Positions 7,299 through 62,805 of a DNA stretch of 64,000 nucleotides are shown here, piece by piece. The notes beneath the pieces are model-generated. The model searched no databases, had not been told where the DNA came from, and was given only the letters and a program-made list of their open reading frames with translations. Origin of the DNA: Methanothermobacter sp. (GTDB lineage Archaea; Methanobacteriota; Methanobacteria; Methanobacteriales; Methanothermobacteraceae); contig NZ_JASFYE010000002.1 in the NCBI RefSeq assembly GCF_030055425.1, positions 124,001-188,000 of the forward strand. Reading direction: 5' to 3'. The translations under genes and the position numbers were made by a program. The number at the start of each line of letters is the position of its first letter. Position 1 is the stretch's first letter.

Positions 7299-7357
7299 TT
7301 GCTGGCATGGAAAAATATTAATAGTTGATTGCCCAATCTTTTTATTGGTTTCATTTT

Positions 7358-7429
7358 GCCCTGATAGTGTAGCGGATATCACGTAGGACTGCGGATCCTA
7401 TTACCCGGGTTCAAGTCCCGGTCAGGGCA
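7358..7429 (+). tRNA. tRNA-Arg, anticodon GCG
   Basis: A full cloverleaf can be drawn: acceptor GCCCTGA (7358-7364) pairs with TCAGGGC, the anticodon stem TAGGA/TCCTA encloses loop CTGCGGA (anticodon GCG, reads CGC), and the T arm is CCGGG-TTCAAGT-CCCGG. The discriminator base is A and no CCA is encoded (the next base is T). T33 and the D-arm GTG/CAC pairs are present. It marks the left edge of the AT-rich island. Downstream T-runs near 7465-7495 could end its transcript. Confidence 0.95.
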
Positions 7430-7690
7430 TCTACTCAGTAAACTTTCATGAGATAGGTTTTAGTCATGGCTTTGGTTTTTTATAATATATTTTTTCTATA
7501 ACCTCTCTTTTATACTTGAAAAAGCCACTATTTTGATGATCCTAGGTCATCGCTTATTAGGCTCATTAAATACAGTAAAATTAATACTTACAACTCTAAT
7601 TAATGAATAAAAATATTACTAAAAATTAAATAGTAAATATTATATTATTCTTAGAATAATTAATATTATAGCTTAAAAGGAGGTTGAAGG
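7430..7690. other. AT-rich leader region of the island, no clear gene
   Basis: About 260 bases with very high A+T and many stops in all frames. I see T-runs after the tRNA, a near-palindrome around CCTAGG (7535-7551, GATGA...TCATC arms), a perfect 17-bp palindrome (7644-7660) and an AAAAGGAGGT ribosome-binding site (7675-7684). It most likely holds the tRNA terminator and the island promoter. No repeat of the tRNA 3' end was seen. Confidence 0.6.
7644..7660. promoter_or_regulatory. Perfect palindrome upstream of the radical SAM operon, candidate operator
   Basis: ATTATTCT-T-AGAATAAT: 8-bp arms with one central base, inside an A/T-rich block that could also hold the TATA box, and about 18 bases before the AAAGGAGGT site. 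Size and symmetry fit a dimeric repressor site such as those of metal regulators (DtxR/Fur-like), but no regulator gene lies beside it. At this base composition, chance palindromes are possible. Confidence 0.4.
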
Positions 7691-7738
7691 ATGGACTATG
7701 AAGAATTTTTGGAAATGGGATGTTTCCATAACCATTGA
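7691..7738 (+). CDS. Possible 15-codon leader peptide
   Basis: ATG 7691 opens MDYEEFLEMGCFHNH and stops at 7738. Its ribosome-binding site AGGAGGT (7678-7684, 6-base spacing) is the best in the island. It overlaps a 34-codon ORF in another frame (7698-7802). It could be a translated leader, a peptide substrate for the radical SAM enzymes downstream, or noise. Cys, His and Asn near the C-terminus would be reasonable targets for modification, but this is speculation. Confidence 0.3.
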   Translation: MDYEEFLEMGCFHNH

Positions 7739-7802
7739 GATAGTTATTTGTTTATTTATTTTTGAAGAATTGGAATTATTAATTGGGTATTGGGGGCTAT
7801 AA
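7698..7802 (+). CDS. 34-residue ORF abutting the first radical SAM gene
   Basis: This ORF starts at ATG 7698 (MKNFWKWDVSITIEIVICLF...) and its TAA ends at 7802, directly before the ATG of the radical SAM gene at 7803. The product is aromatic and hydrophobic, has one Cys (residue 18), an acidic patch EELE and ends GYWGL. GAAGGA at 7686-7691 may serve as ribosome-binding site. The exact junction and the shared strand suggest a real gene coupled to the enzyme: a small membrane peptide or a modified-peptide precursor. No known precursor family is recognised. Confidence 0.4.
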   Translation: MKNFWKWDVSITIEIVICLFIFEELELLIGYWGL

Positions 7803-8786
7803 ATGGAATATATCCCCTTTCTATTGGTATTTCACATAACTGGGCACTGCAATTTGAAGTGTTGTTATTGTTATGCAAATCGATATAAACGGGAACATGT
7901 TGACTTTGATGCTATAAAGGATGTTTTAAGACAATCAAAGGAATTAGGTTCAAGACATGTTATATTTAGTGGAGGGGAACCACTAATTCACCCAGAATTT
8001 CATGAGATATTAGAATATGCCAGTGAACTCCAACTTGGCATTCACATAACGTCTAATGGCACTCTCCTTGATAATGAAACTACAGTGAAATTAAAATCGG
8101 TGGATGCTAAAGTCACGATAAGTCTTGATGGGGCTTTTCCAGAAATAAATGACCCATTACGGGGGCCCGGGACATTCAAAATGGCTGTAAGTGCAATAGA
8201 AAATCTTGTAGACAACGGTGTTTATACTTCGATGAGAATGACTCTGCTTAAAAGTAATTTATTCAATGTACGTGATTATATTGAACTTGCTATAGAAAAA
8301 GGGGTAAATCGCTGCATAATTGAACGCATGACATTATCAAACTATAATAAAAGAGAATTAGCAAACCTAGAAATCACAAAAGAGGACCTTTTTCATACCT
8401 TTAAAATACTTTACGACTATAAGGACCTTAAATGTCTCAGAATAGGATCTAATGATCCACTCTGGCTTATTTTTTGTCGGAAAAACTATATTGATAAAGA
8501 CAATATATGTGGAGGATGTACTGCAGGTGTAGCTGCTGTTTCTATTAACCCTGATTTAACAGTATCCCCTTGTCCTAGATTAGATATCATTTGTGGCAGT
8601 TTAAAGGACCATTCTTTAAAATCTCTCTGGAAAAAATCGGAGGTTTTTAGGAATTTACGTAATAGGAATCTTTTTGAAGGATGTAATTCGTGTCAATTTA
8701 AAAATCTTTGTGGTGGTTGCAGAGGAGCCGCTCATGCCCATGGATTCTATTTAGGAAGAGATCCTCAGTGCTGGAGGCTAGAATAA
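7803..8786 (+). CDS. Radical SAM/SPASM domain enzyme 1
   Basis: A 327-residue radical SAM enzyme. The SAM-binding cluster motif CxxxCxxC is C16-C20-C23, followed by FSGGEPLIHPEF (SAM-binding GGE) and HITSNGTLL. The C-terminal ~90 residues hold a SPASM-type set of cysteines (CGGCTAG, SPCPRL, CNSCQFKNLCGGC, PQCW) for auxiliary [4Fe-4S] clusters. Such enzymes modify peptides (PqqE, anSME types) or tetrapyrroles (AhbC/AhbD types). Substrate unknown. First large gene of the AT-rich operon; the next gene overlaps its stop by one base (TAATG). Confidence 0.85.
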   Translation: MEYIPFLLVFHITGHCNLKCCYCYANRYKREHVDFDAIKDVLRQSKELGSRHVIFSGGEPLIHPEFHEILEYASELQLGIHITSNGTLLDNETTVKLKSVDAKVTISLDGAFPEINDPLRGPGTFKMAVSAIENLVDNGVYTSMRMTLLKSNLFNVRDYIELAIEKGVNRCIIERMTLSNYNKRELANLEITKEDLFHTFKILYDYKDLKCLRIGSNDPLWLIFCRKNYIDKDNICGGCTAGVAAVSINPDLTVSPCPRLDIICGSLKDHSLKSLWKKSEVFRNLRNRNLFEGCNSCQFKNLCGGCRGAAHAHGFYLGRDPQCWRLE

Positions 8787-9742
8787 TGAACTGCGTACTT
8801 ATGGTTACTAAATCGTGTAATATAACTTGTAAATACTGTTATATGGATTCAAAAAGTATAGATTCCAAAATTGAACCACTTAAACCCATAATGGATATAA
8901 TAGAATTATTAGAAACCATAAAACTCGAAAAATTGGTATTGGGAGGCGGAGAACCTTTTTTAAGAAAAGATATATTCAAAATACTTGAAGATAGTGTAAA
9001 GAGGTTTTGCACCAGTATTTTAACAAATGGAACCATGATTAATAAAAAAATTGTGGAAAAACTGAAATATACAGGAATTGATTGTATAAGCATTAGTTTA
9101 GATTCACCACACCCTACAATCCATAACCAATTTAGAGATAATTCCTTTTCTGATGCTCTAGAATCCATTAAAAGCTGCATAAAACATGGAATAGATGTTG
9201 ATATGGGGGTTTGTGTACATAAAAAAAATTTTGAATATTCAATAGAGCTCATTAAAATGGCTGAAGATCTTGGTCTCTCATCAATTACCTTTGAAGGACT
9301 TAATCTTATAGGAAGAGCTGAAGACCGCAAATATCTGCAACTTGAAGCGCAAGAAACAGATCATTTTTTAGAGAAAGTATACGAATATTTAAAAGATGAA
9401 AAACCGGATATCAATGTTATAATGTTTTATCCCCAATGGGTTAGATGGGACAGTAATGCTAAGGGATGTGAAGCTGCAAAAAGCTTTTTTGGCATCTTAC
9501 CTAACGGAGAAATGGTACCATGCACCAATATACCTATTTCATTGGGCAATGTACTCAATAAAGATTTTGAAGTTCTATGGAATAGTGAAATTATGAATAA
9601 GATCCGGAATTACAGAAGGGGAGGTTGTAAAATATGCAAATATAAAGATAAATGTGGTGGTTGCCGAAGCAGAGCCTATTGTACAGGTGATTTACTTGGA
9701 AGCGACCCTCTATGTACATTATCTCATGAGAAGGTGATTTAG
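8786..9742 (+). CDS. Radical SAM/SPASM domain enzyme 2
   Basis: A 318-residue paralogue of the previous enzyme. I start it at ATG 8786, which overlaps the preceding stop, because GGAGG at 8773-8777 is well placed and the protein then begins MNCVLMVTKSCNITCKYC (cluster Cys 11, 15, 18). LGGGEPFLRKDI binds SAM. The C-terminal cysteines (KGCEAAKSFFGILPNGEMVPC, GCKICKYKDKCGGC, DPLC) are a SPASM-type set. Twin SPASM enzymes in one operon suggest two steps on one substrate. A longer in-frame ORF from 8708 lies inside the first enzyme and is not supported. Confidence 0.85.
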   Translation: MNCVLMVTKSCNITCKYCYMDSKSIDSKIEPLKPIMDIIELLETIKLEKLVLGGGEPFLRKDIFKILEDSVKRFCTSILTNGTMINKKIVEKLKYTGIDCISISLDSPHPTIHNQFRDNSFSDALESIKSCIKHGIDVDMGVCVHKKNFEYSIELIKMAEDLGLSSITFEGLNLIGRAEDRKYLQLEAQETDHFLEKVYEYLKDEKPDINVIMFYPQWVRWDSNAKGCEAAKSFFGILPNGEMVPCTNIPISLGNVLNKDFEVLWNSEIMNKIRNYRRGGCKICKYKDKCGGCRSRAYCTGDLLGSDPLCTLSHEKVI

Positions 9743-10596
9743 TGTCAAATAAAAGACGTATTATCAGGGAATTAATTACCCTTCCTAGACCACAACTTTT
9801 TCCTATCCCAGCCAGTGCGGGGATGTGTGGGCTGGCTTTATCTTCATCCAGTATTAATTTTCATGAAATATCAAATGCAATAATAATACCTATTTTAATT
9901 TGGTGTGGTGGCCAGGTGTTAAATGACCTTTTTGATTCAGAGTTTGACAAAATATACCATCCTGAGTGGCCTATTCCATCAGGGTTGATAAATAAAAATC
10001 TGGCTTTTGTTTATGCAATGATCTTTTATATGGCCGGGTTTTTAGTTGCATTCTACATAAACATTTATTGTTTAATAACAACAGCTGTTGCGGCTTTTTT
10101 TGCTACAGTATACAATCAATTAAAGAGAAGAGGCATTTATGGGAATATTTGTTTTGGTTTGGCTGTGGCTTCATGCGTGTTAATTGGAACAGCTATAAAT
10201 AAGGCCATATCCATGTTAATTTTACTTGTTATATTTATATCAAGCTTGGTTCATATGAGTGATAATATACTTGGGACTTTTCCTGACATTGAAGCAGATA
10301 AAAAGATTGGTTTTCAAACATTACCTATACAAATAGGACCCGAATACTCGGCCATCATTAGTTTTGTACTTTTTTCACTGGCAAGTTTACTTACTCTGTT
10401 ATTATGGAGAGTGGGCTTGAGTATTTTCTATTTGCCTTTGGCTACTGTGGCTATAGTCTCTATATTATGGACTTCTTTTCTTGTTTTAAAGGATCCTATG
10501 AAATTCTGTAGACTAGAAGGGTTCTGGATTGTATATTCATTATTCATGGGTGAAATATTGCTTTATACATCTTTGATAGTAGGTTCCTGTATCTAA
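9742..10596 (+). CDS. UbiA-family prenyltransferase
   Basis: A 284-residue membrane prenyltransferase with about eight hydrophobic segments. First diphosphate/Mg2+ motif: NDLFDSEFDKIYHPEWPIPSG (the NDxxDxxxD type); second: DIEADKKIGFQTLPIQIG (DxxxDxxxG-TLP type). It would move an isoprenoid chain onto an aromatic ring, tetrapyrrole, glycerol lipid or other acceptor. GTG 9742 overlaps the previous stop (TAGTG) with AAGGTGAT upstream. The usual archaeal lipid enzyme is of this family, but the operon context with two radical SAM enzymes points to a special acceptor. Confidence 0.85.
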   Translation: MSNKRRIIRELITLPRPQLFPIPASAGMCGLALSSSSINFHEISNAIIIPILIWCGGQVLNDLFDSEFDKIYHPEWPIPSGLINKNLAFVYAMIFYMAGFLVAFYINIYCLITTAVAAFFATVYNQLKRRGIYGNICFGLAVASCVLIGTAINKAISMLILLVIFISSLVHMSDNILGTFPDIEADKKIGFQTLPIQIGPEYSAIISFVLFSLASLLTLLLWRVGLSIFYLPLATVAIVSILWTSFLVLKDPMKFCRLEGFWIVYSLFMGEILLYTSLIVGSCI

Positions 10597-10613: not shown

Positions 10614-11153
10614 ATGTCTGAAAAATATCGAAGCTTTCACTTTACCAATAGGGAAATTGCTATGCTGGCAGCATTCTCGGTTCTACTGCTATCTGTAGAT
10701 CTTATCTGGATTTTAGGTCCTATTCTGGGAAATATAATCTATGGAATTATTGATGGGATTATACTGATCACGGCAGCCATTGTTATTGGTAGGAGGTACA
10801 CTGTCTTAAACCTTGGAATAATTCGGACTATCGTCGAAATATTTATAGCAGGCGCTTTTGTGGGGACCCTCACGGCATTTGATTATCTGGTCAGTGCGCT
10901 AGTACTTGAGACGATTTTACAGTTTTCAACACCATATGCAGCAAATTTAAGAATCAATGTCCTTGGCATGACACTGTATGGTTTGGTAACAAGGTTGATG
11001 TTCATAACAATAAGTGTTTTTATTTATGGCATGATTTTACCCCTCTGGCTCATGTTATTCATGATTATTGTGCCTGTCATAACCTATGCAATAGGAGGAT
11101 TTATAGGCCACGGTGTAGGCAACAGAGTTAAGAATACTGTGACAGCAATATAA
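10614..11153 (+). CDS. ECF transporter S component-like membrane protein
   Basis: A 179-residue integral membrane protein with about five or six helices. FTNREIAMLAAFSVLLLS at the N-terminus is the usual S-component opening. It is followed at once by T- and A-component genes, so it is probably the substrate-binding subunit of this ECF importer. Substrate unknown; it does not look like BioY, ThiT or CbiM to me. ATG 10614 has AGAGGTGG upstream; an in-frame ATG at 10596 overlaps the UbiA stop and would add six residues. Confidence 0.7.
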   Translation: MSEKYRSFHFTNREIAMLAAFSVLLLSVDLIWILGPILGNIIYGIIDGIILITAAIVIGRRYTVLNLGIIRTIVEIFIAGAFVGTLTAFDYLVSALVLETILQFSTPYAANLRINVLGMTLYGLVTRLMFITISVFIYGMILPLWLMLFMIIVPVITYAIGGFIGHGVGNRVKNTVTAI

Positions 11154-11206: not shown

Positions 11207-11992
11207 ATGATTGAGTATATAAACTCAGATTCAATAATCCACAAATTGAATCCCTTTACAAAATTTTTATTCTCCCTCATAGTTTTAACTGCGAGCATAA
11301 TAACATCTTCCGTATGGATTCTGGCATCTTTAATAACGGTTTCTATAATTTGCTGGTTAACCGCAAGGATTCCCCTTAAAAATTTTAAAGTATTACTCAT
11401 TGTCATAGTTGCAATGATTGTAATCGGTACTTTAACTCAATCTCTATTCTTTACAGAGAAACCCGGATACACTGGAACCAAAACAGTTCTTTTTAATATA
11501 ATTCCATATGATCTGCCAGTAATAGGTGCTCTACCCATCACACTTGAAGGACTAAAGTATGGAATTATCTTTTCCATGAGAATGACAGCAATAGTAATTT
11601 CGTCACTCCTACTTCCTATCACGACACACCCAACTGAAATAATACTAATGTTAAAAAGGATGAAATTTCCAGAGTGGTTGATTCTGGTTATTACAATGTC
11701 CATCCGTTTTTTACCCATGAGCATCCAAAACTTCAACACCATGAGAAATGCTCAGCGACTTAGAAAGGGTAGGCTTGAATTGAAGGATCTTCTTTTGCTT
11801 TTGGAGTCTCTCATCATAATATCAGTTTTAACAGCAAAGAAGATGGCACTTTCACTGGAAATTAAAGCATTTGGACACAGCAAAAAAAGGACCTCCTTTA
11901 AGACCCTTCAATTCCGTTTCCGGGATTTAATATTCACCTTGTTTTCAATCACGATTCTTTTTATAGCGCTACTCGACAGGTGGTGGTCCTGA
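11207..11992 (+). CDS. ECF transporter transmembrane (T) component, EcfT/CbiQ family
   Basis: A 261-residue EcfT-type protein. The N-terminal INSDSIIHKLNPFTKFLFSL is the standard entry of CbiQ/EcfT proteins (D-x-x-H-x-L-x-P-x-x-K), followed by four or five membrane helices. The coupling-helix region has AQRLRKGRLELKDLL (the Ala-Arg-Gly-type motif that docks on the ATPases, here AQRLRKG). It links the S component to the ATPase. The next gene starts one base after the stop. Confidence 0.88.
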   Translation: MIEYINSDSIIHKLNPFTKFLFSLIVLTASIITSSVWILASLITVSIICWLTARIPLKNFKVLLIVIVAMIVIGTLTQSLFFTEKPGYTGTKTVLFNIIPYDLPVIGALPITLEGLKYGIIFSMRMTAIVISSLLLPITTHPTEIILMLKRMKFPEWLILVITMSIRFLPMSIQNFNTMRNAQRLRKGRLELKDLLLLLESLIIISVLTAKKMALSLEIKAFGHSKKRTSFKTLQFRFRDLIFTLFSITILFIALLDRWWS

Positions 11993-11993
11993 A

Positions 11994-13631
11994 ATGGACG
12001 CAATCCAAATAAAAAATTTTTCATTTCGTTACGCAGGTTCAGATAAACCCGCACTTCGGAGAATAAACTTTACAGTAAAAAAAGGGGAATTTGTTGGAAT
12101 CACGGGAAAATCAGGCTGTGGAAAATCTACTCTCCTTTATGCTTTAAGAGGGATAATCCCCCATGCAGTTAAAGGTGAAAGGCGGGGTTCAGTCAGAGTC
12201 TGGGGACTCGATACAGAGGAAAATGGAATAGAAACACTCACATCTCATGTGGGTATGGTGTTCCAGAATCCAGAACTTCAGATTTTTAGTGTAACCGTTG
12301 AGGATGAAGTTGCCTTTGTAGCTGAGAACTTAGGTTATTCCCCTGACAAAATAGAGGAATGTGTAGATTTTGCACTAAACGCTGTGGATATAGCCGAAAT
12401 CAGATATCGTTACCCTCATGATTTATCTGGCGGAGAAAAACAGAAGCTGGCCATAGCATCTGTCTTATCAGTTAAACCTGAAATCCTATTATTGGATGAG
12501 CCAACATCGGAACTTGATGCAAAGGGAAGACACATGGTTCTTGAAACCCTAAGAAAATTGAATTCTAAAGGCATGACTGTAATAATTGCGGAACATAACC
12601 TTGATGAGGTAGCCCCCCTTATGGACAGGTTGATTATTCTGGATGAAGGCCGAGTCAGAGTTTCTGGAAAGCCAGAGAATGTATTCAGATCTAAAAAATT
12701 TTTTGAACTAAAATTAAGAGCTCCCCAAGTTGTTGAGGTCGGTATGAAGCTTAGAGAGCAGAAAGTTCCTCTATCGATATATGATGCTACGGAGTGTCTG
12801 AAAAATAAACTCCATGATATCCAGGTTCAGAGATATGATTGTCAGACTCCTCGGGGAAAACCGGTAATTGAGGTGAGGAATCTCTTCTTCCAGAAGGATG
12901 GTAGGAAAATTCTAGATAATATCAATATGCATATCAATAGGGGAGAGGTTGTAGGGCTAATCGGTCCGAATGGTTCAGGAAAAACAACCCTCGCAATGAT
13001 GCTAACGGGCATTTTAAGACCTTCGAAAGGAAAAATTAGGATTCTAGACGAATTTGTAGATGGAAACCCACGAAAAGTTCATGGAAAAATTGGGTTTCTT
13101 TTTCAGAACCCAGAACATCAAATTTTCTGCAGTTCTGTAAAATCTGAGGTTAAATATGGAGCTGAAAATAGGGGGGATCTGGTTTCTGCCCTGCTAAAAA
13201 AGATGGATCTTGAGAAGTTTGAGGATAAACATCCACTAACCCTTAGTAGGGGGGAGTTGCAGAGAGTAGCAACTGCCACAGTACTTTCAATGGATCCTGA
13301 AATACTTATTATAGATGAACCAACGACTGGGCAGGACTGGGATCATGTAAAGGGGTTCATGGATTTTCTCATGGGCCTGAGAACGAAAGGAAAGACGATT
13401 CTCCTCATTACACATGATATGAGAGTAGCTGCAGAGTACTGCCAGAGGCTGCTTGTAATGAAAAAGGGGAAGATAGTGATGGATTCATACACACGGAATG
13501 TCTTTGCAAATGTGGAATTCCTTAAGGAAGCCGACCTGAAACCTCCACCTATTTCCGAGATAAGTCGGATGGCAGGTATAAATCCGCCTCTTCTCAGGGT
13601 GCATGAGATCAGATTAAAGAAATGTGGGTGA
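11994..13631 (+). CDS. ECF transporter ATPase, two ABC domains fused (EcfA1A2-type)
   Basis: A 545-residue protein with two ABC ATPase domains. Domain 1: Walker A GKSGCGKST (residues 38-46), Q-loop VFQNPELQIF, signature LSGGEKQK, Walker B ILLLDEPTSELD, switch His in IIAEHNLDEV. Domain 2 (from about residue 295): Walker A GPNGSGKTT, Q-loop LFQNPEHQIF, signature LSRGELQR, Walker B ILIIDEPTTGQD, THDMR. Each EcfA usually comes as a separate gene; this fused form supplies both sites. The Gly-to-Arg change in the second signature may weaken one ATP site. Confidence 0.92.
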   Translation: MDAIQIKNFSFRYAGSDKPALRRINFTVKKGEFVGITGKSGCGKSTLLYALRGIIPHAVKGERRGSVRVWGLDTEENGIETLTSHVGMVFQNPELQIFSVTVEDEVAFVAENLGYSPDKIEECVDFALNAVDIAEIRYRYPHDLSGGEKQKLAIASVLSVKPEILLLDEPTSELDAKGRHMVLETLRKLNSKGMTVIIAEHNLDEVAPLMDRLIILDEGRVRVSGKPENVFRSKKFFELKLRAPQVVEVGMKLREQKVPLSIYDATECLKNKLHDIQVQRYDCQTPRGKPVIEVRNLFFQKDGRKILDNINMHINRGEVVGLIGPNGSGKTTLAMMLTGILRPSKGKIRILDEFVDGNPRKVHGKIGFLFQNPEHQIFCSSVKSEVKYGAENRGDLVSALLKKMDLEKFEDKHPLTLSRGELQRVATATVLSMDPEILIIDEPTTGQDWDHVKGFMDFLMGLRTKGKTILLITHDMRVAAEYCQRLLVMKKGKIVMDSYTRNVFANVEFLKEADLKPPPISEISRMAGINPPLLRVHEIRLKKCG

Positions 13632-13641
13632 GGGATAGGAG

Positions 13642-15372
13642 GTGCTGGGGCTCATTAAACTGGCTGGAAAAAGGAGAGTTAAACTTTTCATAGCATGTTC
13701 ATTGCATGTAATCGCTTCTGCTCTGGCAGTAGTCCCATTCCTTGTGATATACCTTATTTTCATTGAGATATTCAGTGGATCCTGCAACCATCGGAGGGTA
13801 TGGATGCTAATGGCTTTAATACCAATTATCTACTTGGCAATGTCAGCTATCCTTGTATCTGCATACAATGTATCACATGCTGCAGCATATGAAATCCTTG
13901 CAGACACCAGAATTGATCTGGGAAGGAAATTTTTCAATTTGCCAATGGGATATTTCAATGATAAGAATACTGGTGAACTGGAAACAGTAATGAATGAGAA
14001 TGTAGAAATTCTTGAGCTTTTTTTAGCCCACCACCTTCCAGAGATGATAAGTACAGTATTTGTACCTTTATCCCTTGCATTGATACTCTTCTTAATGGAT
14101 TGGAGGATGGCAATGGCTTCTATACTACCAGTGACCCTTGCAATGGCTGTGATCATGACAAAAGATCAGAAATGGAAAGATATGATCGACGCGTATCTTA
14201 GGGCTCAGGCAGAAATTAATTCAACAATTTTGGAATACGTAGAGGGTATTAAGGTGATTAAGGCCTTCAATCAAACACCCAATTCATTCAGGCGCTATCT
14301 AAACACCATGGCTTGCTGGAGGGAAAGTATGATTGAATGGTCAAGAGAAAGGGCCCTTCCCTTCACGATTTACCAGGCTCTGATAACATCCACCCCAATA
14401 TTTATAATTCCGGCGGGTCTTTTGCTATATAACCTAGAAATTATTTCTAAGGATACATTTTTAATGTTTCTCATACTCGGTCCAGTTTTAGGAAGCCTCT
14501 TTATGCGCATATATGACTTTTTAAGGTACGGTGTTGAGGAAAAGGAATGCGTAAATAGGATCAGGAAGGTGTTAAATGCAGATGAGATGATTGATAATGG
14601 AAATGAAAATGTTGAATACTTTGATATAACATTCAGGAATGTTTATTTTGCCTATGAAACCGGAAATGCTGTGCTGAAGGGTATAAGCTTTCATGTACCG
14701 AACGGAACAAGATGTGCCATCGTTGGACCTTCTGGGGCGGGTAAAACCACGATAGCAAGGTTGATATGTAGATTCTGGGATGTCGACGATGGTGAGATTC
14801 TCGTTGGAGGATGCGACATAAAGGATATGTCAGTAAAGGATCTTCTATCACATGTTTCAATGGTTCTACAGGAACCATACCTCTTCAATGATACGATACT
14901 GGAGAATATCAAGATGGGAAATCCTGATGCATCTGTTGATGATGTAATTGTGGCTTCAAAGGTCGCTGGGTGTCATAAATTCATAGAAAAACTTCCTAAT
15001 GGTTATTTAACTTGTGTAGGTGAAAGTGGCGTGAAATTGAGTGGTGGAGAAAAACAGAGAATTTCAATTGCAAGGGCATTTTTAAAGGATGCACCTATCG
15101 TTATAATTGATGAAGCCACGGCATTTCTTGATCCGGAAAACGAGGCGATAATACAGGAAGCTGTAAGTAAGTTAACCTCTAATAAAACTGTCATTGTGAT
15201 AACTCATAAACTTCATACAATACGTGAAGTGGAAAATATACTTGTCATTAAAGAAGGAAAAATAGTTGAAAGGGGACATTTTGATGAATTGATAACTAAA
15301 GACGGTCTTTTCAGGGAAATGTGGCATGATTATATGTCATCGATGAACTGGAGTATTAAAAAGGTGAGATGA
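13642..15372 (+). CDS. ABC transporter half-molecule 1 (exporter fold, IrtA/YbtP-like)
   Basis: A 576-residue half-transporter: a six-helix type IV (exporter-fold) membrane domain (about residues 15-310) and an ATPase domain with Walker A GPSGAGKTT (from 362), signature LSGGEKQR, Walker B IVIIDEATAFLDPENE and TH switch. The DEATA-x-x-DPENE D-loop is like that of siderophore and metallophore half-transporters which, despite the exporter fold, import metal complexes; this is from memory. GTG 13642 has GGGTGAGG 8 bases upstream. It surely pairs with the next gene. Confidence 0.88.
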   Translation: MLGLIKLAGKRRVKLFIACSLHVIASALAVVPFLVIYLIFIEIFSGSCNHRRVWMLMALIPIIYLAMSAILVSAYNVSHAAAYEILADTRIDLGRKFFNLPMGYFNDKNTGELETVMNENVEILELFLAHHLPEMISTVFVPLSLALILFLMDWRMAMASILPVTLAMAVIMTKDQKWKDMIDAYLRAQAEINSTILEYVEGIKVIKAFNQTPNSFRRYLNTMACWRESMIEWSRERALPFTIYQALITSTPIFIIPAGLLLYNLEIISKDTFLMFLILGPVLGSLFMRIYDFLRYGVEEKECVNRIRKVLNADEMIDNGNENVEYFDITFRNVYFAYETGNAVLKGISFHVPNGTRCAIVGPSGAGKTTIARLICRFWDVDDGEILVGGCDIKDMSVKDLLSHVSMVLQEPYLFNDTILENIKMGNPDASVDDVIVASKVAGCHKFIEKLPNGYLTCVGESGVKLSGGEKQRISIARAFLKDAPIVIIDEATAFLDPENEAIIQEAVSKLTSNKTVIVITHKLHTIREVENILVIKEGKIVERGHFDELITKDGLFREMWHDYMSSMNWSIKKVR

Positions 15373-17097
15373 ATGTATAGTAGATTATTTCACCTTGTGG
15401 GAAAAAATAAGAATCAGTTAAAGTTCACACTTATTTTAATGTCAATTTATGGCATTATCAAAACTGCCCCTCTAGCTTTTCTTTATTTAATTATAGTAGA
15501 GTTTTTAAAGCCCGTTCTTAATATTCCAAGGATTTTAACCATATACTTACTTATGGTGGTTAGCTACGTAATCATAAACAGCATTGACCACTATCTGTTT
15601 CTCAGATCAATGCAGCAAGGCCTTAAAATTTCCTATGATCTCAGAATGAAACTTGGAAATAAATTAACAAAAATATCACTGGGGATTTTCACAAAAAAAA
15701 CCACGGGAGAGTTTAATACAACACTTAGCGAATATGTGAGCAGGGTGGAATATTTCATAACATATATGGCACCATACCTAATTACCTCAAAGGCATCATT
15801 TATTTTTATCATAATCATTTTTTTTATTTTGGATTGGAGGATTGCACTGGCTTCCATTTCAGCGATTCCTCTGATTTGGATGGCCTTTAGATATTCTGAT
15901 AAAATTTCTGAAAAGGTCAAAAGGGAACGAGAAAGGTCACTTTTCAGACTGAATTCACGGATAGTTGAATTCATAGAATGCATGCCAGCCATAAAAATTT
16001 TCAATCAGGAATTTTCTAGCCTTAATAAGTTGAGAAAAAGTGTAGAGGATTTTAGGGATAGGAACATAAACACTGTATCGGCTACAGTAATTCCTAATAT
16101 AATCCTCCTTATATCTTCAAGTTTACTGATAGGATTCATCATGCCAGCATCATTATATCTTTATTTCAGGGGGGCACTGAACTCTGAAATCCTCGTATTC
16201 TGTTTAATAGCCGCACCTGCACTCTCAGAGGCTCTCGCACATTATCTTTATGGTTACCTCCACATGAAACATTCAGTTGGTAAAGCAATGAATCACATAA
16301 TCAAACTTTTAGAGATGAAAACCCTTCCAGAATCATGTGAAAGCAGAGAACCTGAAAAATTTGATATCGAATTTGAAAATGTTACCTTTTACTATGAGGA
16401 GAAAAAAATACTCGATAACATCAGTTTCAGAGTTCCTGAGAACAGTATAACGGCACTTGTGGGCCCATCAGGCGCTGGTAAGACAACCATTACAAATCTC
16501 ATCCTCCGATTCTGGGACCCTACCTCAGGTAAGGTGAAGATTGGAGGCTATGATCTGCGGGATATGGATATGGAGACGCTCTTTTCATGTGTTTCCATAG
16601 TCTTTCAAGATGTCATACTTTTCAATAACACCGTTAAGGAGAATATAAGAATTGGAAGGAATGATGCAAGTGATGATGAAGTCATAAAGGCTGCCAAGGC
16701 TGCCAGGTGCCATGAATTTATAATTCAACTCCCCCGGGGATATGATACTGTCATAGGGGAAAAAGGGGCAAGGTTAAGTGGCGGGGAAAGACAGAGGATA
16801 GCGATAGCCAGAGCAATTCTTAAGGATTCACCAATTCTTATTCTGGATGAGGCAACTGTTTATGTGGATCCTGGAAACGAAAAATCGATACAGGAGGCAC
16901 TCGGAGAATTGATCAGGAACCGAACAGTTCTTATGATCGCTCACAGACTTTCCACAATAAGATCAGCAGACCAGATAATAGTCATTAAAGATGGTAAAAT
17001 CGCTGAAAAGGGTAAACATAATGAGTTAATGAAACAAAATGGACTTTATAGGTATTTATGGGAGATCCAGGAATCTGCAGAAGCATGGAAAATTTAA
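15373..17097 (+). CDS. ABC transporter half-molecule 2 (exporter fold, IrtB/YbtQ-like)
   Basis: A 574-residue partner of the preceding half-transporter, same layout: membrane domain to about residue 310, then Walker A GPSGAGKTT (from 364), Q-loop VFQDVILFN, signature LSGGERQR, Walker B ILILDEATVYVD and AHRLST. Both halves keep the catalytic Glu and switch His, so both ATP sites look active. ATG 15373 follows the previous stop directly with AAGGTGAGAT. Last gene of the AT-rich operon. Confidence 0.88.
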   Translation: MYSRLFHLVGKNKNQLKFTLILMSIYGIIKTAPLAFLYLIIVEFLKPVLNIPRILTIYLLMVVSYVIINSIDHYLFLRSMQQGLKISYDLRMKLGNKLTKISLGIFTKKTTGEFNTTLSEYVSRVEYFITYMAPYLITSKASFIFIIIIFFILDWRIALASISAIPLIWMAFRYSDKISEKVKRERERSLFRLNSRIVEFIECMPAIKIFNQEFSSLNKLRKSVEDFRDRNINTVSATVIPNIILLISSSLLIGFIMPASLYLYFRGALNSEILVFCLIAAPALSEALAHYLYGYLHMKHSVGKAMNHIIKLLEMKTLPESCESREPEKFDIEFENVTFYYEEKKILDNISFRVPENSITALVGPSGAGKTTITNLILRFWDPTSGKVKIGGYDLRDMDMETLFSCVSIVFQDVILFNNTVKENIRIGRNDASDDEVIKAAKAARCHEFIIQLPRGYDTVIGEKGARLSGGERQRIAIARAILKDSPILILDEATVYVDPGNEKSIQEALGELIRNRTVLMIAHRLSTIRSADQIIVIKDGKIAEKGKHNELMKQNGLYRYLWEIQESAEAWKI

Positions 17098-55654: not shown

Positions 55655-56497
<843 letters not shown>

Positions 56498-56506
56498 GTG
56501 TTAAAA

Positions 56507-56824
56507 ATGAAGATGATAAGGGCAATAATAAGACCTGAAAAGTCCGAAGAGGTGGCTGATGCTCTGGATGATGCAGGGTTCCCGGCCCTCACAAAGATGG
56601 AGGTTATAGGGAGGGGTAAGCAGAAGGGCATTCGCTTTGATGAAATTTACTATGATGAGATACCCAAGACCATGCTGCTCATCGTTGTGGACGATGCTGA
56701 TGCAGAGAAGGTGGTCTCGGTTATCAGTGAAAGCGGATACACAGGAAAAATTGGGGATGGTAAAATATTCATAAGCCCAGTGGAAAACGCCTACACCGTC
56801 AGAACAAGAGAGGAAGGCCTTTAG
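56507..56824 (+). CDS. nifI1: NifI1, PII-like nitrogenase regulator
   Basis: A 105-residue PII-family protein (MKMIRAIIRPEKSEEVADALDD, then KIGDGKIFISPVENAYTVRTREEGL). With NifI2 it binds NifDK and switches it off in response to ammonia, relieved by 2-oxoglutarate. The gap between nifH and nifD is the usual place for this pair in archaea. ATG 56507 with AGGTG 6 bases before it; GTG 56498 is in frame but poorer. The T-loop Tyr region differs from GlnB. Confidence 0.92.
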   Translation: MKMIRAIIRPEKSEEVADALDDAGFPALTKMEVIGRGKQKGIRFDEIYYDEIPKTMLLIVVDDADAEKVVSVISESGYTGKIGDGKIFISPVENAYTVRTREEGL

Positions 56825-56832
56825 GTGTCTGA

Positions 56833-57198
56833 ATGAAGGAAATAATCGCCATAATAAGACCAAAAAGCATGAAGAAGACCAGGGATGTTCTTGAATCCCT
56901 GGGATTCCCCTCATTCAACGCCACCAGAGTTCTCGGAAGGGGCAAGCAGAGGGCAATAATTGATGAGGTCAGCATTCCCACACCCCCAGAGGGGATTGAT
57001 GAGAAGAGGGGAACAATGAGATACATTCCCAAGAGGATGATCCAGATAACCGTGGAGGATCCTGACGTCCAGCTGGTTGTGGAGGCCATAATGAAGGTCA
57101 ACCACACAGGAAAAATTGGGGACGGAAAGATCTTTGTATGCCCGGTTGACGATGCAATGAGGATAAGGACTGGTGATAGAGGGACTGAAGCGCTTTAA
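56833..57198 (+). CDS. nifI2: NifI2, PII-like nitrogenase regulator
   Basis: A 121-residue PII-family partner of NifI1, with KIGDGKIFVCPVDDAMRIRTGDRGTEAL at the C-terminus and a longer T-loop region (SIPTPPEGIDEKRGTMRYIPKRMIQITVED) as in NifI2. ATG 56833 is seven bases past the nifI1 stop. A TATA-like ctttatattt at 57201-57210 after it could be an internal promoter for nifD. Confidence 0.92.
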   Translation: MKEIIAIIRPKSMKKTRDVLESLGFPSFNATRVLGRGKQRAIIDEVSIPTPPEGIDEKRGTMRYIPKRMIQITVEDPDVQLVVEAIMKVNHTGKIGDGKIFVCPVDDAMRIRTGDRGTEAL

Positions 57199-57269
57199 CC
57201 CTTTATATTTGGATTGAAATGGTAGAGGGCGGTTTTAGTTTCTCCGTATAAATCAAAGGATGATTGAAA

Positions 57270-58682
57270 ATGCCATTTGAACTGTTTGATGTCGATGCTG
57301 AAATACCAGATAGAAAAAAGCACATCTATGTAAAGAAGGAGGCGGATCCCCAGGAGGACATACCAGCATGTAACACGACAACGATCCCCGGCTGTATGAC
57401 AGAAAGGGGATGCGCATTTGCAGGTGCAAAGGGTGTGATAACAGGGGCAATAAAGGATGCGCTTCACGTTATCCATTCACCTGTTGGATGCACAGCATAT
57501 GGCTACGGTACAAAGAGATACCCCACATCACAGAAAATGCCTGATGGAAGCATGTTCCCAATAGAAAACTTCAACCTCAAATACATAACCGGAACGGATC
57601 TGAGTGAGTCTGATGTGGTGTTTGGTGGTATGGACAAACTCAAAAGGTGCATCCTGGAGGCGGTCAGGGAATTTCCAGAGGTAAATGCGGTTTACACCTA
57701 CGCCACATGCACAACAGGTCTCATAGGGGACGATATTGATGCAATCTCAAGGGAGGTCTCAGAGGAGATTGGTAAGGATGTTGTTGCAATAAACGCTCCG
57801 GGCTTTGCGGGTCCAACACAGTCAAAGGGACATCAGGTTGCCAACTACACCCTCTTTGAGGACCTGGTGGGAACCGCAGAGCCCCCCAGAACCACGGAAT
57901 ATGACGTGAACCTCATAGGGGAGTACAATATCGATGGGGACCTCTGGGTTCTGAAAAAATACTTTGAGGAGATGGGGATAAACGTCCTGAGCACATTCAC
58001 AGGCGACTGCTGTCACGACGAGATAAAGTGGATGCACAGGGCAAAGCTGAGTCTGGTCAGATGTCAGAGATCAGCAAACTACATTGCAAAGCTCCTTGAG
58101 GAGAGATATGGCGTCCCCTACATGAAGGTTGATTTCTTTGGAATGGAATACTGCAGAAAAAACCTCATGGCAATAGGGGAGTATTTCGGAATACCAGAGA
58201 AGGCAGAGAGGGTGATAGAGGACAGAATGGAAAAAATAGGTCCAGAGATTCAGTATCTCAGGGATAAACTCAGGGGTAAAAGGGTCTGGGTTTTCTCAGG
58301 AGGCCCGAAAAACTGGCATCTTCCCAGACCACTCGAGGACGAACTTGGAATGGAAGTGGTTGCAGTTTCAACAATGTTCGAACACGAAGACGGCTACGAG
58401 AAGATCAAGAAAAGGGTCCGGGAGGGCACAGTGATAGTGGACGACCCCAACTCACTGGAACTCGAGGAGATCATCGAGAAATACAGGCCAGACATCATTC
58501 TATCAGGAATAAAGGAAAAATACCTCGCCCATAAACTTGGAGTGCCCTGTATACTCATCCACTCATATGAAAACGGGCCATACATAGGCTTTGAGGGATT
58601 CCTTAATCTGGCGAGGGACATGTACGCGGCAATATACAATCCTGTATGGGATCTGCTTGAATTCGAGGAGGATGTTAACTGA
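57270..58682 (+). CDS. nifD: Nitrogenase MoFe protein alpha chain NifD
   Basis: A 470-residue alpha subunit. P-cluster cysteines are in [22 protein letters not shown] and [13 protein letters not shown]. Cofactor ligands are the Cys in [22 protein letters not shown] and the His in [18 protein letters not shown]. The metal (Mo, V or Fe) cannot be read safely from this; the operon lacks extra anf/vnfG genes, so Mo is likely. ATG 57270 with AGGATGAT; TTG 57264 is the alternative. nifK overlaps its stop by one base. Confidence 0.95.
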
Positions 58683-60061
58683 TGCCAGAAATAAACGTGA
58701 TGGAGAGGGGAAGGGAACTTGTGATAAACCCCCTCGTGACCTGCCAGCCATTCGGTGCAATGTTCGCAACACTGGGTATAAGGAGGGGGCTGCCCCTGGT
58801 TCACGGCTCCCAGGGCTGCAGCACCTTTGTGAGATACGGGCTTAACAGACACTTCAGAGAACCCGCAGAGATAGCCGTCACATCGCTTCATGAGGACGCT
58901 GCCGTATTCGGAGGTAGAAGTAACATAATAAACGGTGTTAAAAACCTTGTGAAGAGACTCAGACCCGACCTTGTGGGAATTGTAACCACCTGCTCAAGTG
59001 AAATAATAGGGGATGACGTGGATGGTTTCATGAGGGTCGCTGAGACTGAACTGAGGGATGAACTTGGAGACAGGTTCCAGACAAAACTGGTCCACATATC
59101 AACACCCAGCTTCGTTGAAAACCACTTCAGGGGATACGGAAATGCCATAAAATCATTCATAGAGACCCTCGCCAGGGAGGATGGAGACTGTAACCATAGG
59201 CTCAACGTGATACCGGGTATAGTTAACCCTGGCGACATAAGGGAGATAAAACACATCCTGGGCCTTATGGGCATTGACCATATCATACTCACTGATACCT
59301 CAGATCCCTTTGATTCCCCACTCAGACCATCAAAAACAGAGAAGATGCCATTCTACCCCCGTGGAGGAACACGGGTTTCTGAAATAGAGGACTCATCAAG
59401 CAGTATTGGAACAGTGACAATGACCATGTATGGTGATGAAGCAGTGAATACACTTGAAAAGCGATTCGGGGTACCGGGTGAGTACTCCATACCAGTGGGG
59501 GTCCGCAATACAGATGAATTTGTTCGCACGGTAGCCAGGATTTCAGAGAGTGATGTGAATGATGAACTGCTCGATGAAAGAGGCATCCTGATTGACTCAA
59601 TGGCGGACCTCAGTTCAAGGTACCTCTCTGGAAGAACAGCCGCGGTCTACGGGGACCCTGACATGGTTGCGGGAATATCAAGGTTCCTCTGTGAACTTGG
59701 GATGGTTCCACTCCACACTTGCACAGGAACAGATAACCAACTATTCCTTGATAGGATGAAGACAGTGGCATCTGAGGCAGGTGAAAGGATAAATGTCATG
59801 ATAAAATCAGATCTCAGGGCACTTGAGGCGAAACTCGCAGAGGAACCTGTTGACCTCATGATAGGAAACTCAGATGGCAGACTCATAGCCCAGGACCTTG
59901 GAATACCCCTTGTGAGGGTTGGCTACCCGGTATATGACAGGGTGGGCTATCAGAGGGTGCCCATCACAGGCTACAGGGGGGCAGTGAATCTCATAAACAG
60001 AATAACAAACACAGTACTCAGGGAATACTATGAACCACAGCACTGGAAACTGCAGCAGTAA
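58682..60061 (+). CDS. nifK: Nitrogenase MoFe protein beta chain NifK
   Basis: A 459-residue beta subunit. P-cluster cysteines lie in [30 protein letters not shown] and [39 protein letters not shown] is the standard block. Short compared with bacterial NifK, without the long N-terminal extension, as usual for archaeal nif. Its 3' end overlaps nifE by 32 bases. Confidence 0.96.
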
Positions 60062-61472
60062 AGAGAATTTTTCAGCGGGCACCGCAGGTGATCTAAAGGT
60101 TGAGGAGGTCCCTGAAGCGGTTATAGAGACACTCTCCCCCAGAAAAGAACACTTCACAAGGAGCTGCAGCGGGTCAGGGCCACGCTGTAATCGTGAATCA
60201 CTTCCAGGCATGGTAACCCAGAGGTCATGTGTTTATGGGGGGGCGAGGGTTGTCCTCATGCCCATAACGGATGCAGCCCACCTTGTGCATGGACCTGTGG
60301 GATGCGCTGCATGCACCTGGGACATCAGGGGAAGCAGAAGCTCAGGGTCTGAACTCTACAGGATGGGATTCTCAACTGGTCTTGAGGAAAAGGATGTGGT
60401 GTTTGGGGGGGAGGATAAACTCCTTGAATGTATACTGGAGATAAGTGAAATTCACTCCCCCTCAGCCATATTCGTCTACTCCACATGTGTTTCAGGCGTT
60501 ATAGGGGACGACATAGCGGCTGTATGCAGAACAGCAGAAAACAAAACAGGAAGATGGGTAATACCGGTGCAGTCTGAGGGATTCAGAAGCTTCAACAAGT
60601 CACTCGGCCACCAGCTAGCCTGCGATGTTATTCTCAGACACATAATAGGGCGTGGAGATGCTGAAGTCAGGGAAAACTCGGTTAACCTTGTGGGTGAGTT
60701 CAATGTTGCAGGGGACCTCTGGGAGATAAAGGGTCTACTTGAGAAAATGGGTATTTGCGTGGTTTCATCCATAACCGGTGACTCAACAGTGGCTGAAATC
60801 TCAGAAGCCCACACAGCGCAGCTTAACATTGTACAGTGCAGCAAGTCATCAGGTTACATTGCAGAGGAGATGAAGAGGAAATACGGGATACCCTACATAA
60901 ATGTCAATTTTTTTGGCATAAAAGAGACCATGGATTCTCTCCTATCAATTTCAGATTTCTTTGGTCTCAGCGATGAAAAATGGATCAGCTCAATGGCAGA
61001 AAAAACATATAGAATCATCAGGGGCTACAGGAGAGCCCTTGAGGGTAAAAAGGTGGCAATATACGTGGGCGGTAACAAGGCATGGTCCCTTATAAGGGCA
61101 TTCGGGGACCTTGGAATGGAGGTGATAATGAGCGGAACCCAGAATGGGCTCCCTGAAGACTACCTGAAGATAATGGAGAAGTCAGGAAGGGAACTGATAC
61201 TCTTTGATGATGCAAATCCAGTTGAACTTTCAGAACTGCTGCGAAAGTACAGGCCTGATCTGCTTGTTTCAGGGGCCAAGGAAAAATATCTCTCCTATAA
61301 GCTTGGAATACCCTTCTGTGAATTTAACCATGACAGGATAAAACCATTCTCAGGCTTTGGAGGATTCCTGAATTTTGCCGAGGAGGTTAAAAGAACCCTG
61401 GAAAGTCCCATATGGACTATTGCCAGCAAAAAAAGGTTATCAGGACCAGGAGGTATGTCAGGTGGAGCATAG
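60030..61472 (+). CDS. nifE: NifE, FeMo-cofactor scaffold alpha-like subunit
   Basis: A 480-residue NifD paralogue for cofactor maturation. It has [36 protein letters not shown] and [18 protein letters not shown], the NifE Cys sites, and [22 protein letters not shown] with its Cys. The N-terminal CSGSGPRCN adds further cysteines. ATG 60030 lies 32 bases inside nifK. Pairs with NifN as the NifEN scaffold. No nifB is in the window. Confidence 0.93.
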
Positions 61473-62805
61473 AAGCACCATAATGAATCCTGGAACCATC
61501 TGTCAGCCCCTGGGTGCCGTCATGGCGTTTCTGGGCATCAGGGGCTCAATGCCACTCATACATGGTTCACAGGGCTGCAGCACATATATGAGGTTTCAGC
61601 TCACAAGACACTTCAGAGAACCTGTGAATATAGCCTCAAGTTCCCTGAGTGAAGCTACAGTTGTATATGGTGGAGAAGAAAACCTTTTAAGGGCCCTGAA
61701 GACGGTTGAAGAACAGTACAGCCCTGAAGTTATAGGTGTAATTTCAGGTTGCCTCTCAGAGACAATAGGAGATGACATTGATAGAATAGTGGATAAACAC
61801 AGGGGAAGAGGAGAGTCTGAGATTATAACGGTTTCATCACCTGGCTTCAGAGGTTCACACGTGGATGGATATGAGGCCGCTGTTAAATCCATTCTCAGAT
61901 CACTTGTCAGGGGTCATGCTGAACCTGTTGATAGAATAAACATCATAAATGGTATCATGAGCCCTGCAGACACCTCAGAGATAAAGAATATTCTTGAAGG
62001 AATCGGCGTGGATTTTCTCATGATAACCGATAACTCTGAGTCCCTTGACGAACCATTTGATGGTGACCCGTATTTTATAACACGTCACGGAACATCCATC
62101 CATGAAATAGCTGGTGCAGGTAGCTCCATGGCCACCCTTAACCTTGGGGGGTACGGTGGAGGGGAGTTCCTGGAAAAGAAATACGGGGTTAAAAACATTG
62201 AACTCCAGATCCCTGCAGGTCTTGGAGGTACAGATAAATTTTTAGGGGTCCTCCTTGATCTTTTCCATTCAGATATTTCCCGCTCCATCAGGAGGGAGCG
62301 GGGTAGACTGATGGATGCGATGATAGATTCCCATCAGTACACCTCAGGAAGGAGAGTGGCCATATTTGCAGACCCAGCATATGCTGTTGCATTAACATCG
62401 CTGGTACTTGAGATGGGAATGCAGCCGTACGTTTTCACAGGTTCCAGGAGCAGATACTTCCATGAAAAAATCAGCCAGCTCCAGAGTAAATGGGGGTCCC
62501 GATTTCTGGCACGGAGTGGGGTTGATATATTTGGCTTAAGGGAAAACCTTGCTGGCAGAGAGATCGACGTCCTTATAGGAAACTCCCACTGCGCAAGGGT
62601 AGCCAGGGAACTTGGAGTGCCCCTCATGAGGATTGGATTCCCGGTTTACGATAGGGTGGGGTCCCAGAGAATAAGAATAGCAGGATACGCCGGGGGGATA
62701 GCCTTTGTTGACTCCCTCACAAACCTGATACTCGAGAGCCACTATGATGAGGGATATGAAATTGAGGGTGATACATGTGATAAGGATAGCTGTTGCGTCG
62801 GATGA
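61462..62805 (+). CDS. nifN: NifN, FeMo-cofactor scaffold beta-like subunit
   Basis: A 447-residue NifK paralogue. It has [42 protein letters not shown] and [16 protein letters not shown], and a C-terminal [27 protein letters not shown] start at GTG 61462, 11 bases inside nifE, with AGGAGGT 7 bases upstream. A longer frame from 61375 lies within nifE and has no ribosome site. The C-terminus ends with a Cys cluster ([11 protein letters not shown]). Confidence 0.92.

Follow-up and report, generated by a model that had tools for sequence, protein, structure and literature searches.

A gene for a 15-residue peptide that ends in Cys-x-His-Asn-His, together with the two radical SAM enzymes encoded directly behind it, forms the strongly supported core of a 9.7-kb gene island in Methanothermobacter sp., and the transporters further downstream suggest that its product is a ribosomally made metallophore of a kind not previously described in archaea. 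The peptide is very probably the substrate of both enzymes. The full reading, in which a radical-SAM RiPP with a CxHNH core and optional prenylation acts as a metallophore served by its own uptake system, has in our judgement a slightly better than even chance of being correct. Within the window (the whole stretch of 64,000 nucleotides that was analysed), the features of the island are:

7357..7431, + strand: tRNA-Arg(gcg), left border of the island
7679..7684, + strand: Shine-Dalgarno sequence GGAGGT, 6 nt 5' of the peptide ATG, identified from the sequence
7691..7738, + strand: putative precursor peptide, 15 aa, MDYEEFLEMGCFHNH followed by a stop, with orthologues in G046 and G103
7803..8786, + strand: rSAM1, radical SAM/SPASM enzyme, 327 aa, with CxxxCxxC at residues 16-23 and conserved SPASM cysteines
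8786..9742, + strand: rSAM2, the other radical SAM/SPASM enzyme (318 aa, counted from its ATG at 8786), assigned by Pfam
9742..10596, + strand: accessory UbiA prenyltransferase, 284 aa, with NDLFDSEFD and DIEAD motifs, nearest to DGGGP synthase
10614..11153, + strand: ECF-type S component in no named family, assigned by AlphaFold2 model and Foldseek
11207..11992, + strand: ECF T component (CbiQ family), assigned by Pfam/NCBIfam
11994..13631, + strand: ECF duplicated ATPase with two fused ABC domains, assigned by Pfam/NCBIfam
13642..15372, + strand: YbtP-like exporter-fold half-transporter (ABC1), assigned by comparison with half-transporters in the PDB
15373..17097, + strand: YbtQ-like exporter-fold half-transporter (ABC2), assigned in the same way; end of the island

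The island is horizontally acquired. It forms a low-GC stretch (~32-41% GC, from ~7.4 to 17.1 kb) between flanks of ~50% GC, and its 9.7 kb are inserted here between the tRNA-Arg and an F390 synthetase gene; seven further genomes of the genus have the F390 synthetase gene shortly or directly downstream of this tRNA-Arg and lack the island. No attachment-site repeat was found at the island ends, and the tRNA was the sole match in the Rfam scan. Elsewhere in the window (55670-62805), a NifH-like ORF followed by four NifD/K/E/N-like ORFs makes up a nitrogenase-type cluster, as judged by translations alone.

The peptide ORF (ATG GAC TAT GAA GAA TTT TTG GAA ATG GGA TGT TTC CAT AAC CAT TGA) sits unannotated between the tRNA and rSAM1 and was overlooked in the first-pass annotation. 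It encodes a C-terminal Cys-Phe-His-Asn-His, it is preceded at close range by a strong ribosome-binding site, and its length is fixed by an in-frame stop (TGA, 7685-7687) just 5' of the ATG. Two methanogens from another family (G046 and G103) encode MSYEEFLMLGCKHNH, followed by a stop, in the equivalent position; their peptide genes differ at three codons, with three synonymous and no nonsynonymous changes. The position and length of the peptide and its G-C-x-H-N-H end are shared by all three loci. When 152 Methanobacteria genomes were searched with a degenerate DNA pattern for EFLxxGCxHNH, it occurred once per genome in 3 of them, exactly the same three that carry intact rSAM1 and rSAM2; this strict co-occurrence comprises the only three intact loci in the sample. 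A small, conserved precursor ORF thus both adjoins and co-occurs with modifying enzymes, as in RiPP pathways. Against GTDB r220 contigs the same pattern gave five bacterial matches, with ~4 expected by chance according to our own estimate, and none adjoined an ORF with CxxxCxxC. A 34-aa ORF in another frame (7698-7802), which abuts the rSAM1 ATG, was rejected as a candidate: the other loci lack it and encode the 15-aa peptide instead. In G046 and G103 (L024 and L025), a conserved 26-nt palindrome, TAATTAGTNNNNACTAATTA, lies ~40 nt 5' of the peptide ATG and reads TATTAATTAGTTATTACTAATTAATA in G046. A regulon search with it found the locus itself as the sole match in those two genomes, and the palindrome is likely the operator of a pathway-specific regulator.

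Both enzymes matched Pfam Radical_SAM (5.5e-27 and 1.1e-25) and SPASM (1e-7 and 1.8e-9). Their orthologues, intact among the 152 Methanobacteria genomes only in G046 and G103, are 48-55% identical, and invariant cysteines across the three loci are C16/C20/C23 with C236-C323 in rSAM1 and C11/C15/C18 with C228-C310 in rSAM2. The highest-scoring NCBIfam models (among them NirJ2, AhbD, MftC, GeoRSP and TIGR04053) reached at most 170 bits against cut-offs of 265-500. NirJ2 and AhbD ranked top for both enzymes, at ~150-170 bits against cut-offs of 500, and PqqE and MftC scores were likewise far under their cut-offs. The first-pass annotation had proposed placing the enzymes in a tree; in a tree of SPASM families that included NirJ, MftC and PqqE, rSAM1 and rSAM2 formed two separate supported clades grouping with none of these three, on an unresolved backbone. 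Judged by these sequence comparisons, both enzymes lie outside AhbC/AhbD/NirJ, PqqE and MftC. The nearest solved chains in a profile search (SkfB, 5wgg, anSME, SuiB and PqqE) were mostly peptide- or protein-modifying, and a scan of GTDB r220 contigs with an rSAM1 profile returned zero relatives. For rSAM1, an AlphaFold2 model built on three sequences had a low pLDDT (52) and was set aside. On the Methanosphaera plasmid pNP174 (L079, 8971-9995), a radical SAM/SPASM gene that is annotated as two split ORFs adjoins a BREX locus.

The two enzyme genes and the UbiA gene are the trio noted in the first-pass annotation, and each neighbouring pair does overlap by one base (TAATG, 8784-8788, between rSAM1 and rSAM2; TAGTG, 9740-9744, between rSAM2 and UbiA). 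The UbiA stop overlaps a possible ATG at 10596, although the ECF S-component start at 10614 (ATG) is better placed. That the three proteins work in a fixed ratio is unsupported as a general rule, and UbiA is best regarded as accessory, because the peptide, enzyme pair and transporters are intact in G046 without it; an orthologue occurs only in G103, besides a remnant described below. The protein matches Pfam UbiA (7e-36), contains two Asp-rich motifs (NDLFDSEFD and DIEADKKIG), and has as its nearest solved structure the archaeal lipid enzyme DGGGP synthase (85 bits, versus 50 bits for chlorophyll synthase) rather than ChlG or heme O synthase. In G103 (L025, 15185-16735), a class II terpene-cyclase-like gene follows UbiA and precedes a second ECF S component. 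Its 517-aa product contains SQHop_cyclase (squalene-hopene-cyclase) domains and a DSDDTA motif, and the gene is unique among the 152 Methanobacteria genomes. This pairing hints at an isoprenoid tail that could be cyclised.

A further genome of the same genus (G146; L026, 5975-6690) carries a degenerate version of the island elsewhere on its chromosome. Here rSAM1 carries a frameshift and a partial deletion and reads into the last ~23 residues of UbiA, rSAM2 is lost, and UbiA survives as this C-terminal remnant alone. The peptide gene keeps its start as MNYKEFLKLGCFNN, while its end is frameshifted from HNH and a stop to NNIRFEDS... The peptide C-terminal motif is therefore retained where the maturases are retained and lost where they are lost, in a single case of decay that is no proof of a substrate relation. 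ABC2 and the ECF genes have kept their full length, and a single frameshift in ABC1 could reflect either decay or a sequencing error. Broken maturases beside a nearly intact importer could be expected if this lineage used its neighbours' product.

The adjoining importer/exporter set noted in the first-pass annotation consists of a complete ECF transporter (S, T and ATPase) and two exporter-fold half-transporters. The S component was modelled by AlphaFold2 with a mean pLDDT of 76, and its best Foldseek matches were ECF S components (5edl: probability 1.00, TM 0.69, E 1.1e-3). G046 and G103 each encode two S components, 40-52% identical to that of the window; a plasmid search with the window's S component gave zero matches. 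The ABC proteins were ranked against half-transporters in the PDB; tandem-domain eukaryotic transporters score higher because their two domains add up. ABC1 scored highest against YbtP (348 bits), above IrtA, YbtQ (254 bits) and Sav1866 (241 bits), and ABC2 against YbtQ/YbtP (316/315 bits), above MsbA (272 bits). On this ranking the tandem pair is of the YbtPQ type (the yersiniabactin importer), with a putative function in siderophore import. In 11 plasmid neighbourhoods of pair homologues, hand-picked from the best matches and taken without a control set, a TonB-dependent receptor was nearby in seven, and in four of these siderophore transport was annotated. Two of those with the TonB link also contained an NRPS or NRPS/PKS gene. 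The identical S-T-ATPase-ABC-ABC order was seen on one Corynebacterium plasmid. The link to TonB or siderophores was absent from the Prevotella and Paenibacillus neighbourhoods, and in Anaerococcus the pair adjoins a peptide/nickel transporter.

These results fit a model in which the 15-aa peptide would be divided into a leader (~MxYEEFLxxG) and a core (~C[F/K]HNH), and rSAM1 and rSAM2 would each introduce one modification, probably crosslinks or oxidations at the Cys/His/Asn end. Exported or released, the product would bind metal through Cys/His ligands and be taken up again by the YbtPQ-like pair, the ECF S-T-A2 importer or both. UbiA, with the class II terpene cyclase in G103, may add an optional isoprenoid tail. 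A prenylated peptide had been one of two earlier readings, and the conserved peptide gene directly upstream accords with it. The suggestion, made in passing, that the product could act as a metal ligand agrees with the CxHNH end and the YbtPQ/ECF-type uptake cassette. Neither a peptidase gene in the cluster nor, in Pfam scans of the island proteins, an RRE/PqqD domain was detected; such leader-binding domains are common, though not universal, in RiPP pathways.

One close parallel is the equibactin locus of Streptococcus equi (eqbA-N). Its eqbHIJ genes, without which siderophore-dependent iron import fails, specify an importer of the ferric-siderophore-like kind and sit beside a YbtPQ-like eqbKL that is dispensable for import and perhaps serves in export (PMC3672683). 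A similar gene set is listed for a siderophore island of C. difficile (PMC6814731). Like the island described here, these loci are mobile islands with a permease/ATPase importer and a YbtPQ-like pair beside a metallophore pathway, which in our case is a proposed one; unlike it, they specify an NRPS-made chelator (PMC3672683, PMC6814731). By analogy the ribosomal 15-aa peptide and its two radical SAM enzymes would occupy the place of the NRPS genes. Methanobactin and other MNIO-dependent RiPPs share with our model a ribosomal peptide proposed as a metal chelator with dedicated transport, but in our model maturation falls to a pair of SPASM radical SAM enzymes, the host is archaeal, and no MNIO (DUF692; MbnB/MbnC) was found in a Pfam scan of nine island-region proteins. 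A search of the open-access literature found no radical-SAM and UbiA RiPP cluster, no methanogen metallophore and no system with such a combination.

The peptide and maturases would also fit a secreted antimicrobial or signalling peptide, with the exporter-fold pair as exporter and the ECF system for re-import or immunity. Exporter-fold ABC transporters are often peptide exporters, and the island is mobile and sporadic. We nevertheless consider this role unlikely: the half-transporters are closer to the siderophore importers YbtPQ/IrtA than to single-chain exporters, an ECF importer is present every time whereas an immunity gene is absent, and metal ligands abound in the tiny predicted core. 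It is less probable still that the product is a redox or enzyme cofactor scavenged by the importer. ECF transporters are usually vitamin and cofactor carriers, and in the PQQ and mycofactocin pathways a short precursor peptide likewise lies directly 5' of a SPASM radical SAM enzyme, with MftC and PqqE among the nearest-scoring families. However, PQQ uses Glu/Tyr and mycofactocin Val/Tyr of the precursor, whereas the conserved end here is CxHNH, and by Pfam and NCBIfam the island contains no partner dehydrogenase, no PqqD/MftB-like chaperone and no MftD- or PqqC-like gene.

The other earlier reading, in which AhbC/AhbD/NirJ-type enzymes and a ChlG-type transferase yield a modified tetrapyrrole or quinone, now appears highly improbable; under it, the small ORF would be only a regulatory leader peptide. 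NirJ2, AhbD and AhbC are indeed the nearest named NCBIfam models and have an identical domain order, but both enzymes score only 153-170 bits against 500, occupy clades distinct from NirJ and are accompanied by a peptide gene; the best AhbD match in a search of four genomes was 162 bits against the cut-off of 500, and UbiA lies nearest to DGGGP synthase. A regulatory leader would not be expected to show amino-acid-level conservation of its last residues, or to lose them together with the enzymes.

A peptide metallophore matured by radical SAM enzymes would add a very small radical SAM substrate, of 15 residues with a predicted core of five. Such a 15-aa gene falls below usual annotation limits, and systems of this kind are easily overlooked. 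More speculatively, and with the odds against it, methanogens may encode a lipid-tailed RiPP metallophore, made by two radical SAM enzymes from the 15-aa peptide and bearing an isoprenoid tail that is cyclised in one lineage, which would set it apart from described ribosomal chelators; if so, archaeal peptide natural products could be linked to both prenylation and the cyclisation of terpenes. Methanogens lean heavily on nickel, cobalt and iron, and a horizontally transferred peptide metallophore, if confirmed, would change the view of metal competition among them.
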